Notes under the pieces: model-generated
Database searches by the model: none
Seen by the model: the letters and a program-made list of their open reading frames with translations, nothing else
What the model was told of the DNA's origin: nothing
NCBI RefSeq assembly: GCF_000787575.1
Contig: NW_012236482.1
Coordinates: forward strand, 2,470-25,060
Origin: Acytostelium subglobosum LB1
Taxonomy: Eukaryota; Evosea; Eumycetozoa; Acytosteliales; Acytosteliaceae
DNA length: 22,591 bases
Reading direction: 5' to 3'
Translations under genes and position numbers: made by a program
Shown here: positions 1-4,436 of the stretch, one piece after another
Layout: each line of letters starts with the position of its first letter
How positions within the stretch are numbered: the first letter of the stretch is position 1

Positions 1-2722
1 TTGTCACTACTGATTGTTGTTGTTGAAGTGATGGTGGGGATAGAATATAATGTGTCATCACATCCTCTGAGTTAAAAAAAAAAAGAAAAAAATGATGCTC
101 TAGTTGGGCAAAAAAAAAATTGAATGGCACACCTGGTATGAGTAGGTCAACATTAGGTTGGTCTCCATCATCTCCAGCGTTTTGTTCAAGGTTGAGGAGG
201 TTGGTTGTGGCTTGATCAGGAGCTTGGGGCACAAGTTTGATACTGAACAAAGCGGCCAGAGTGTCTTTGTTCCTGTTGTGAAGTACCCAATGATCCTTTG
301 GCTGTATTTTGTCCCAGAGCGCTTTGCTGTACTCCCTCTTGTACATGCTCAATCGAATGAACTTGGTTATGATCTGCTGTGTCATCATTGAGACACCATT
401 GCTTGTACCATTGGTGGCGTTGATCTTGATTGACTTGTTAATCTTGTGGCAACCTGTTACAATGATATTTAAAGATGTTAGCTGTGTGCTGACTGTCGTG
501 GCGTCACCGACTTGTTGATATGTGTGCGGCATGATCATACCTTCAAGGCTAAAGTTAGAGAACAGTTCCAAGTTTCCAAACTTGTGAAGGTAAAAGCCAA
601 AGTGGTACGTGAACACGTGCGAGTAGGAGATGGCGCTGGTTGGGCCATACAGCGCGGCTAGATTGCTCATCCATACTTTGGCCATGGACATCCAATGCTT
701 CTCTGAGATCTTGCGGCTCTTCTTCACATTGAACGCAACGTTCAACAGTGAGTAGAGTTGAGCCCACGCAGTTCCAACAGCGACTGCTCTGAGACCCTGT
801 CCTTCGGTACATCGTTTGAAGAGGTCAATGAGTTTCTCGTAGTTGAAGAGGATCTGCTTGCACTCCTCAAAGTTCACCCTAGAGTGTCTGAATCGCTCCA
901 CAAGGCTAGCGTCTCCCTTCTGGATAAGTGATAACTTGATCCCCTTGAAGGTGTTCCAGACATCTGTCTCAACAGTCTGCAGGGGTACTCGGCCTCTGTA
1001 TTTCATAATGTCGATCAACAACCACCTGGTCTGTAGTTTGATCAATGACATCGCCACGTGCAGAAGGTCTGGAATGAATGATTTCATGGTAAGGAAATCA
1101 AGTATTGGATGATGCTGGATGTTGTAGTTTGTTAGCAAAAATGTCTGATTGTGATTTAATGATTGATCGCGATTGGATGTGATGAATGAGCAGAGTTGAG
1201 TGAGTGAATGATTGAGTGAGTGTCTTACCTTGTGGCCGTAGGCCAATGCTGGGTTCTTCTCGTTTGGTTTAACACCTGATAGTAGTCGTTGTTGGTGACT
1301 TGGAATTGAACAATCGTGAAGTTGATCTTTGGTGACGTTGCACCAAGGGCAACGATACTTGGTCTGTGACATCCATACAGCATACAATCCAAACATTTCC
1401 AGGAGCAGCGCCATGTCAGCAACGACTACTGGCTCGATTGAATATCGTCTGTTGTGCATTAATTGTTGCTATGTTAGTGATTGAATGTACACGTGTTTGT
1501 TTGCAAGTATACATACATGTCCTGTGACTGTTCATTGTCATCTTTGATATCGTCTGATGTCATAAAGAACTTTTGTCTGCCTTGGAGCAGTTGTCTAAGC
1601 TCTGAGATAAAGTTCTCAAGCTGCACTGTCAGAGTCTGGTGTAACTCGTCGCCGACATACGCCAAGAAGATGTGACTGTCATATGGACACTTGACCCTCA
1701 TCTTGGTCTTTGATGCATAGATGAGTTGGACGCAACCAATGACCAACTTTTGATTGTTTGAAAGTGTGCATCCATCAATACTGATCTTCAGAAAGATCTT
1801 CTCTGCCTTGTATGCTCTCTGGCCTGGTGGGGTCGCTGCATTTCCAACAGTGACCTTGACCACAGGCTTCTTAGTCTTGTCTAGATTCGCTCGCTCCTCC
1901 TTGAGCATGAGACGCACCAAGTTGGTGAGTGGTACATACGTCCCATCAGTCTGTTCTTTGATATTGTACTTGTTTACGATCTCTGTGTTTGAGAATGAAT
2001 GAATAATTATTAATAATTGAAAGGTTAATGAATTGATGTATATATGTATTAATGTTTGTATGTATGAATGAATGAATGAATGAATGAATGAATGAATGAA
2101 TGAATGTGTGAGTGATGTTGATCAAATAAGAAGTGATAGAATTAATTATTAAATGAATTAAAAAAAAATCCATGTTGTTGAATATAATGGTGGGTGGTGG
2201 TGATCATTCATTCATTCAATCAATCACAATTTCTAACTTACCTTGTTGTAGAGCTTTAACCTTATCTAGAGAGTATTCTTTCTTATTCAGACACAACTTC
2301 TCGAGGAACTCCTTCCACAGGTGGTCTGAAATCATGAACAGATCTTTGACTGCAGCAATATCGTCAAGTGGAACAAACTTATTGGCCTCGCGCAATCGCT
2401 CTTTCATCTCATCTTTGCAAACAGTACAGACAAGTGGTGAACAATCTGGATGATCGCGATGGTAATGCAGTGCTAGGTTGGCTGGTGAATACATTTTACC
2501 AGTTGAATGGCTTTTACAAATGTTGTGTGGACATCGAACACCTTTGGCTTGTTTGGCACTGGACTCATCCTCTACCTTCTTTCTCTTCAAGCAACCAGGA
2601 CATTGGTCAGAACAATGGTGATGCACGCTTTTCTCATGCCTCAACAGTTTGGCTTCTCTCTTGAAGTCATGTCCTGTATTTATGCATGGAGGTGTGTGTT
2701 CACACCTGAACTCCTTTGCCAT
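1..2722 (-). CDS. Zinc-finger protein with DDE-transposase-like layout, C-terminus cut by window edge
   Basis: Model: complement(join(<1..66, 133..1114, 1229..1448, 1517..1982, 2242..2722)). All splice sites are GT..AG and phases agree; about 738 residues are visible. Residues 1-102 hold two copies of one zinc module: C7-C13-H29-H34 with C41/C44, then C64-C69-H86-H91 with C99/C102. A CPWC pair follows at 349-352. Acidic residues lie in strand-like or helix contexts: D230 in KISIDG, D405 in IPDLLH, and E580 in FSNFSLEG just after H560 and an HKFGNL segment. This D, CxxC, D, H..E order is known from RNase H-fold DDE transposases, including RAG1/Transib and large uncharacterised zinc-finger families of protists and invertebrates; assignment here is inference. 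No terminal inverted repeats are visible, and the introns suggest a settled or domesticated copy. The 66-bp last intron is divisible by three, so retaining it would also keep frame. Strong evidence for a gene, moderate for the family. Confidence 0.6.
2064..2106. repeat. ATGA tetranucleotide microsatellite
   Basis: About 10.75 uninterrupted copies of ATGA lie inside the first intron (1983-2241) of the zinc-finger gene. On the minus strand it reads as a His/Ser/Phe/Ile periodic frame, which is not a protein. Confidence 0.9.
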
Positions 2723-3112
2723 GTTGGCAATAATTAATTAACTATTATTGTCTGCAGTAATAAGTAAGTAAGCTATATAGTTATCTATTAAGGATTAGAG
2801 CTGTTGTGTACTCATACAAGTGAGGGACAAACATGAGTTTACATACACCAGTTCAGGCTCCTGCTTCACCATACACATGACCATACACTTTGATCAATAA
2901 ATGTTCAACTTTTATTTGTATCACACACCTATCTGATTATGTGTACAATCAACAATCCCACACCCACACACTTGTGTGCGGGGGAAAGGGACAAACATGA
3001 ATCCATCAGCGTGTACATCTACAGGAATCGATCTATATATAATATGTGACTGTTGAACCTATTCTTACAAAGTATAGCTTGTAGAGACATTATTTCCCAT
3101 TACACGCCAAGA

Positions 3113-3195
3113 GTCGCACTCCAACTGCCACCAACGTCTCGATAACACCTACAATTGACATACCAACAGACTCAACACATCAAGGTGAATCGATA
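3113..3195 (+). repeat. Diverged direct repeat, copy 1
   Basis: This unit begins GTCGCACTCCA and ends near AATCGATA. It aligns along its length, with small gaps, to 3286-3367. The end of each copy contains a CATCAAGRTGAA core followed by CGATA. Confidence 0.65.
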
Positions 3196-3285
3196 GATAT
3201 ATTGTACATCACTTCTGAAGCTATTCTTTAGCAACACATTCAACAACAGCCAGGATACACTCACATTGTGGCATCAACTACGATC

Positions 3286-3367
3286 GTCGCACTCCACTGA
3301 TCACCAACATCGTCCAACAAACACCTATGACACATCATCAGACTCGACCCATCAAGATGAAACGATA
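3286..3367 (+). repeat. Direct repeat, copy 2, immediately upstream of the FNIP gene
   Basis: This copy aligns to 3113-3195 over its full length. Its last 43 bases (3325-3367) match 4456-4499 far more closely, with only a handful of differences. The core contains an ATGAAACGATACAT string that may be, or may once have been, the start of a FNIP reading frame. Confidence 0.7.
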
Positions 3368-3381
3368 CATAAGAGGCAGAG

Positions 3382-4436
3382 ATGTTCGCACGCCTGACCA
3401 GGGAGAACAAGCATCTGACACTGCAGTGTGTCACGGTGGCCTGCCACAGTCGTATCTACACCCTGCATGATTTCGGCGACGTCCCCGCCTACTGCACCAC
3501 GCTGTACTACTGCTTCGATTAGCAGGATCGCGATCTCAGTAGCATTCCCGAGCACATCTACATGTTGTTCTTCAAGAAGCGTGTTGATGGCCAGATGCAC
3601 GGATCAATACCGACCTCGGTCACACGACTGAAGCTTGACAGCAAGTGCTTCCATCTGCTGACATCGGCCGCGATGGAGGCGGTTGCAGCAGGCTCGTTGA
3701 CCTACCTCAGTCTGGAGCATCCTGGCACGGAGCAACAACAACCCAGACGATGATGGATAGGACAACAATGTATGTCACTGCAGACAGCGGACACCTACCA
3801 GTCCATTGACCAACTCTTAGAACACCAAAGGTGTCAGACACCGTCACCTCAATTCTGCTCCAGGATTCAAACCAACCATTCCTCAAGGGATCTTTGCCAC
3901 GATCTCTGACGCACTTGGAGATTGGTGCTCCCTTCGACCAACGNTTGGACGATGGCGATGGGGGATCTATCCTCCCCGCTGCTCTGAGGACCCTCTACAT
4001 ATGGGGGCCATTCAACCAACTGTTACCACCTGGTGCACTTCCATCATCGTTGACCTTGCTCAACCTGAGCGACACCTACATCCATGATCACAACCTCGTT
4101 CCTGGGTCGCTCCCGCCGTCATTAATCACGCTCTCCATTGCGTCGCTCCAAATGCGACCGGGTTTTCTTCCGCCATCATTGACCGACCTCACGATTGTCA
4201 ACAGTCGCGATCGCGAAGATATCCCTCCTGGGACAATCACGTCCGCTCTTAAGAAGTTGAATATTCACTTAATGAACGAAGCGATGTACCCGGGCTCTAT
4301 CCCTCCAACACTGACATCGTTGTCCATAGGCTCGTTCGATATCTCAATCATTGCCAACGCCTCCTCGTCTGATGGTCGAGATCTACACCCATGGGCAACT
4401 CGATTGCAGTCATCCAGGATGCTGGCTGTGCAATAA
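3382..4436 (+). pseudogene. FNIP-repeat gene, apparently broken
   Basis: From 3810 to the stop at 4436 one frame encodes five or six tandem units of about 22 residues with the pattern (F)N..xPG.lPpSLt.L.i, for example PGSLPPSLITLSI, PGFLPPSLTDLTI and PGSIPPTLTSLSI. This is the FNIP/leucine-rich-like repeat typical of Dictyostelium proteins, which usually follow an F-box-like or divergent N-terminus. Upstream, a different frame starting at ATG 3382 has a plausible N-terminal region but is interrupted by TAG at 3520-3522, resumes in the same frame, and ends at TGA 3751. The repeat frame itself has a TGA at 3807. One in-frame stop plus a frame change point to a pseudogene. Unrecognised introns or draft errors (an N at about 3944) could explain part of it. 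Function is unknown; such repeats form scaffolds for protein contacts. Confidence 0.6.

Follow-up and report, generated by a model that had tools for sequence, protein, structure and literature searches.

The 22,591 nucleotides of the social amoeba Acytostelium subglobosum LB1 analyzed here (the window; C7:2470-25060 of a 30.7 Mb genome assembly in 56 contigs, C-numbers denoting contigs) carry at their left edge a minus-strand gene for a zinc-finger protein. This gene raises the question of whether an amoeba encodes a relative of RAG1, the enzyme by which vertebrates shuffle antibody genes, and in what kind of genetic element. The spliced model has five exons and runs from a Met at 2722 to the left edge of the window, giving 731 amino acids (aa) without a stop. 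Judging from sequence comparison, it very probably encodes the transposase of a cut-and-paste DNA transposon with a core homologous to RAG1, within the CMCT (CACTA-Mirage-Chapaev-Transib) clade of transposons; the lineage would be a new and diverged one related to CMCT elements and RAG1.

According to our profiles, the core from after the first catalytic Asp to E580 is homologous to RAG1, for the window protein through its paralogues; single sequences score below detection, and the relation appears only with a family profile. RAG1 ranked first among the PDB sequences in all three family-profile searches. With an eight-row profile searched against 177,635 PDB sequences, 16 of the 18 matches at E≤10 were RAG1 or its relative RAG1L, the best RAG1 having an E-value of 0.00043, the amphioxus RAG1L 0.0084 and the first unrelated protein 2.5, and only RAG1 and RAG1L fell below E=1. 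A 14-row profile gave RAG1 in 10 of 13 matches at E≤10 (best 0.0033, first unrelated 0.16), and a five-row profile built without the window protein gave RAG1 in all 14 matches at E≤1 (best 0.0013). Four alignments holding most of the family were compared directly with RAG1 in hhalign and scored 50-64, with E-values of 6.2e-6 to 1e-7 and shuffled controls at or below 27. The 14-row alignment scored 50.4 against mouse RAG1 545-1014 (E 6.2e-6; 60 shuffles, mean 16.0, maximum 24.9), with 18.1 for reversed RAG1 and 9-19 for seven unrelated window proteins; the nine-row alignment scored 58.3 and the one without the window protein 63.7 (25 shuffles each, maxima 25.4 and 27.0), and the eight-row alignment 55.1 (100 shuffles, maximum 24.1; reversed 24.9). 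An alignment of fragments only placed the region of the last Glu onto that of the second Asp and was excluded from the results.

The available text on RAG1 gives D600, D708, C727/C730, H937/H942 and E962 as its landmarks (PMC4914335), and H795 is described as an active-site residue (PMC7204232, available part). The 14-row alignment pairs D327 with D708, C349 with C727, C352 with C730, D405 with D792, H408 with H795, H555 with H937, H560 with H942 and E580 with E962; the nine-row alignment pairs seven landmarks and ends before E580, and the eight-row alignment pairs three by default, rising to all eight once the cut-off is relaxed. Spacing in the window protein and RAG1 is 22 versus 19 residues from the second Asp to CxxC, 203 versus 207 from CxxC to HxxxxH, and 20 versus 20 from His to Glu. 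The first-pass annotation had proposed a RAG1/Transib-like DDE core with D230, D405 and E580 as its acidic residues and CxxC ahead of the second Asp; homology to RAG1 is borne out by the profiles and hhalign, and the choice of second Asp is not. D405 aligns with D792 in the DALH795 motif of RAG1 and is Cys in the C36 paralogue, and it is D327 (VVVADM) that aligns with D708, which itself precedes C727 (PMC4914335), just as D327 precedes the CxxC.

Conservation was counted over the rows that cover each site, C25 being close to C9 and C52 to C54. The CxxC pair is kept in 8/8 rows, as are H555 and H560 each, the C52 fragment being excluded there as it ends before both. D327 is kept in 7/8 rows; the exception is C18, whose row follows the wrong frame at this site, the other frame reading VND. 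H408 is likewise kept in 7/8 rows (Glu in C18). The three acidic residues singled out by the earlier annotation give a mostly favorable picture in rows of which some are closely related: D230 in 4/5 (not in C54; a C25 exon outside its row reads DVDG), D405 in 7/8, and E580 in 7/8 (Lys in C18), with Glu also present in C43, outside the alignment.

The genome holds a diverged, multicopy family to which the window gene belongs. At E≤0.001 the window protein matches 16 contigs in addition to C7, some of them through the N-terminal modules only; on C38, C32 and C22 the similarity is confined to the exon 1 region. One subfamily comprises C25, C34 (97%), C9, C35, C47 and a stop-ridden C44, and another C54, C52 (96%), C41 and C56. 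Two copies lie on C46, the first with most of exon 1 deleted and the second containing stops. About 960 bp are shared at 99.1-99.9% by C48, C50, C41 and C19, and the terminal 120 bp are 100% identical at five places (C48, C50, C41, C19 and C49), two of which, C19 and C49, have an identical left flank and may be one place. With dispersed near-identical copies, sharp ends and a terminal inverted repeat (TIR) in one subfamily, the family behaves as a transposon family, in agreement with the earlier suggestion of a transposon family of social amoebae. An IMG/VR search with the C25 protein, which reaches close relatives only, returned no confirmed relative.

Three further features were seen among these loci. 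Immediately upstream of the C9 copy lies a hAT transposase remnant (L041 5743-6972; hAT dimerization domain, E 2.3e-13). At C43:20077-20114 (L058) the right end of the C49 group recurs as a lone 38-bp stretch, possibly a deletion derivative or a footprint. The C49 copy, otherwise complete and the element with the clearest boundaries, contains 2367 N in its interior (L057 433-2799).

The 5' terminus of the window copy is sharply defined. A 26-mer covering it, CACGCTGATGGATTCATGTTTGTCCC (2988-3013, minus strand), has three occurrences in the genome when one base is left unspecified and up to 3 mismatches are tolerated: one in the window and two at C46, each with different flanks. The window copy begins at 3013 with CACGCTG, the C46 copy begins at the same base, and the window copy is inserted into a subtelomeric repeat (3014-3371) that has 12 full-length matches at 92-97% and further partial ones, mostly near contig ends, with an internal match on C32. 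In 6/6 other copies read, of more than 15 in the genome, the repeat runs through as GATGTACTGAATC without a break; the window instead has GATGTA and then CACGCTGATGG at the insertion. No TIR pair is visible in the window because the left end of the element lies outside it, directly to the left, where C7:1-2469 is all N. In the first 2450 bases of L006, the C39 locus, a TIR partner of the window terminus was not found (best local score 24, shuffles up to 35). Both ends are seen in three copies of the C49 group (C49, C50 and C41), all of which contain assembly gaps; they carry an 11-bp TIR, CCCAACAAATT, which starts CCCAAC rather than CA. Adjoining the subtelomeric repeat in the window is a fragment of an FNIP-repeat protein (3810-4433; Pfam E 3e-24; one N base inside), a repeat type typical of dictyostelids.

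All five exons of the gene are on the minus strand. GC content is 42-43% in the loci of this genome that were read. Exon 1 (2242-2722) holds the initial Met, two tandem zinc-finger-like modules (C7-C13-H29-H34 with C41xxC44, and C64-C69-H86-H91 with C99xxC102) and the start of the pre-core region. It is followed by intron 1 (1983-2241; GTAAGT..ACAG) and by exon 2 (1517-1982), which encodes the remaining pre-core region and the first half of the core, including D230 (SIDG, codon 1776-1774), the candidate first catalytic Asp. After intron 2 (1449-1516; 68 nt, GT-AG), exon 3 (1229-1448) carries D327 (codon 1417-1415) and CPWC 349-352 (1351-1340). Intron 3 (1115-1228) is 114 nt, GT-AG, in frame and stop-free, and exon 4 (541-1114) encodes D405 (IPDLLH, 1069), H408, H555, H560 (604) and E580 (SLEG, codon 544-542). 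Intron 4 (454-540; 87 nt, in frame) is a putative one, placed because its removal restores E-G-x-H-x-x-N-K right after E580, as in C9 and C25. Exon 5 (1-453) runs off the left edge. The residues D230, CPWC 349-352, D405, H560 and E580 named by the first-pass annotation all stand at their given places in the spliced protein, which also has the two N-terminal modules that it described.

Contig C39 (L006) overlaps window positions 1-296 with 278/296 bases identical, the window having A at each of the 18 differing positions; C39 and C7 are either one locus split by the assembly or two copies. The stretch 132-67, tried as an intron, was rejected as an A-run artefact; in C39 the same stretch lies inside an open frame of 467 aa. 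Such A-runs stand in for the true bases close to assembly gaps or contig ends, here at window 74-123 within exon 5 and also at L060 152-211, beside a gap, and they mimic poly-T introns on the opposite strand. Past the left edge, C39 continues the window protein with a SWIM-like finger that falls just short of the Pfam cut-off (E 0.0013), and in the paralogue C18 a SWIM finger scores above that cut-off. Further along C39, a 44-aa piece taken alone resembles Agenet (E 0.019) and Tudor-knot (E 0.093), both under the Pfam cut-off. Agenet-like pieces occur in C25, C52 and C9 at E about 0.001, also under the cut-off, and the C55 and C43 stretches gave no Agenet-like Pfam match.

Two observations concern these same loci. 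In C18 (L039 3588-4001 and 4012-5496) Lys replaces the catalytic Glu (SIKRM) and a long C-terminal frame is open; C18 is possibly a catalytically dead copy, retained or decaying. Past the gap in C39, an open frame on the opposite strand (L006 4868-5191) shows weak similarity (E 0.008) to the C-terminal region of the C25 protein and is perhaps the tail of another family member.

Several results count against a RAG1-related transposase borne on a transposon. The window protein grouped with C9, C25 and C18 scores only 20.8 against RAG1 (25 shuffles, maximum 27.2), which is not significant; C55, C54, C36, C48 and C52 alone score 52.3 (shuffle maximum 20.8), and the window protein joins this group with a probability of 99.2% (E 3.3e-19), and its link to RAG1 is therefore transitive, via its paralogues. 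D230 is not aligned to D600, which longer alignments under relaxed settings place opposite D195 or K188; D230 is a candidate equivalent of D600 by motif and order. The CxxC-HxxxxH spacing grows to 315 in C9, which has a low-complexity insert. Pfam found no transposase domain in 14 family rows at E≤10 and no match to the spliced window protein at E≤1, nor to the full 170-aa stretch around the Agenet-like piece of C39 at E≤0.1. The Pfam RAG1 model and a RAG1 query both miss the genome copies, a result that shows little, as the model lacked a working positive control. Concerning the element itself, the 3' end of the window copy was not located, and the target-site duplications (TSDs) of the C49 group disagree: GAAT/GAAT (4 bp) at C49, ATCTCTA (7 bp) at C41 and none at C50, a lack that swapping arms between C41 and C50 by eye fails to explain. 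A 5-bp TSD was seen in 0/3 copies with both ends, all gapped, and their TIR is not CACAGTG-like.

The alternative that survives best, and towards which we lean slightly, concerns the branch: the family may sit outside RAG1/Transib, either in another CMCT branch (CACTA/EnSpm, Chapaev, Plavaka, ESTA or Lanisha) or in one of its own, with RAG1 ranking first only because it is the member of the clade for which many structures have been solved. In favor of this, neither the 14-row nor the eight-row profile matches 6pqn, the Transib transposase structure in the PDB set, at E≤10, and the C49-group TIR starts CCC rather than CA. Against it, Pfam holds CACTA and Plavaka models and the 14 rows matched none of its transposases, and the window terminus CACGCTG shares 5/7 positions with CACAGTG, the heptamer of the recombination signal sequence. 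In the available text of PMC12730594, CMCT lineages (CACTA, Mirage, Chapaev, Transib, Plavaka, ESTA, Lanisha and RAG1) carry, after the second D and ahead of the last E, C(2)C and H(3-4)H, and their elements mostly have 5'-CA..TG-3' ends and 2-5 bp TSDs. C(2)C/H(4)H is thus common to the whole clade and does not establish membership in Transib. The same text notes that ESTA was likewise recognized through RAG1 similarity in HHpred (PMC12730594), and Transib, TransibSU, Chapaev and Chapaev3 are elsewhere treated as one superfamily (PMC4411706, available part).

Quite unlikely, in our estimate, is a host gene domesticated from such a transposon, as the first-pass annotation had also entertained. 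The window copy is open through its spliced length and the C46 copies are broken, as might be expected of a domesticated gene, but the 5' terminus of the window copy interrupts the subtelomeric repeat and lies exactly where the damaged sister copy also ends, which argues for a still bounded element. A transposase of another superfamily (MULE, KDZ/Zisupton, hAT or P) with RAG1-imitating motifs is the least probable of all. The SWIM-like finger after the core, a domain typical of MULE transposases, would fit it, but only RAG1 and RAG1L fall below E=0.1 among solved relatives though the PDB includes Transib and also holds hAT, P and mariner transposases, eight RAG1 landmarks align, and no MULE, KDZ or hAT match appears in the 14 core rows at the Pfam threshold given above.

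With a cut-and-paste transposase of the CMCT clade as the preferred reading, a mechanism can be proposed in which fold, catalysis, zinc binding, end binding, chromatin tethering and current activity are inferred by analogy with relatives. Binding of the transposon ends would fall to the zinc modules at the N-terminus and to the SWIM-like finger behind the core, and D230, D327 and E580 would coordinate two metal ions within an RNase H-like fold, supporting hydrolysis and strand transfer. C349, C352, H555 and H560 may together make up a single zinc site, holding the insertion domain against the active site, which H408 would line as H795 does in RAG1. After cutting at the CA-type end, the enzyme would insert the element at a staggered break in the target, and its C-terminal Agenet/Tudor-like piece may anchor it to chromatin. 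More speculatively, and with considerable doubt, the family could be an amoebozoan lineage of RAG1-type transposons that branched off early, carries SWIM and chromatin-reader domains of its own and targets subtelomeres; if true, RAG1-like recombination chemistry would occur in one more major eukaryotic branch, and unclassified dictyostelid DNA transposases would find a home.

Among dictyostelid DNA transposons, Tdd, DDT and Thug of Dictyostelium discoideum were compared by description only. In the available part of one account, D. discoideum DNA transposases have no significant similarity to known ones (PMC5633606), and in that of another TDD-4 and TDD-5 encode a Gypsy-integrase-like transposase (PMC2836005). 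For A. subglobosum, a single DNA transposon is counted in the available text of the genome paper (PMC4334915), and we probably describe a DNA transposon family previously missed in this amoeba, because its single sequences fall below detection. No title reporting Transib/RAG1-like families in Dictyostelium or Amoebozoa was among the literature matches listed, which is weak evidence of absence. RAG-like genes are described from the pelagophyte Aureococcus and Transib-like proteins from bacteria, fungi and plants, and amoeba words were not found in the available text of that source (PMC9435367).

Other CMCT lineages (CACTA, Mirage, Chapaev, Plavaka, ESTA and Lanisha), compared by description only, share the C(2)C/H(3-4)H arrangement between the second D and the last E, but yielded no Pfam match. 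Transib (HzTransib, 6pqn) is likewise a cut-and-paste CMCT element, and the window terminus begins CAC; it differs in that 6pqn is unmatched, the C49 group carries CCCAACAAATT as its TIR, and the 5-bp TSD typical of Transib is not seen. RAG1 and RAG1L/ProtoRAG (amphioxus, 6b40) share with the window gene the second Asp, CxxC, DxLH, HxxxxH and Glu in the same order and at near-equal spacing, zinc modules N-terminal to the core and a significant family-profile similarity. They differ in having 15-18% identity in hhalign, a first Asp that is not alignable, and none of the SWIM-like and Agenet-like pieces that follow the core in the window family. The unusual domain set of zinc modules, RAG1-like core, SWIM-like finger and Agenet-like piece provides a handle on transposase target choice, and the likeness to RAG1 extends the known reach of RAG1-type cores.
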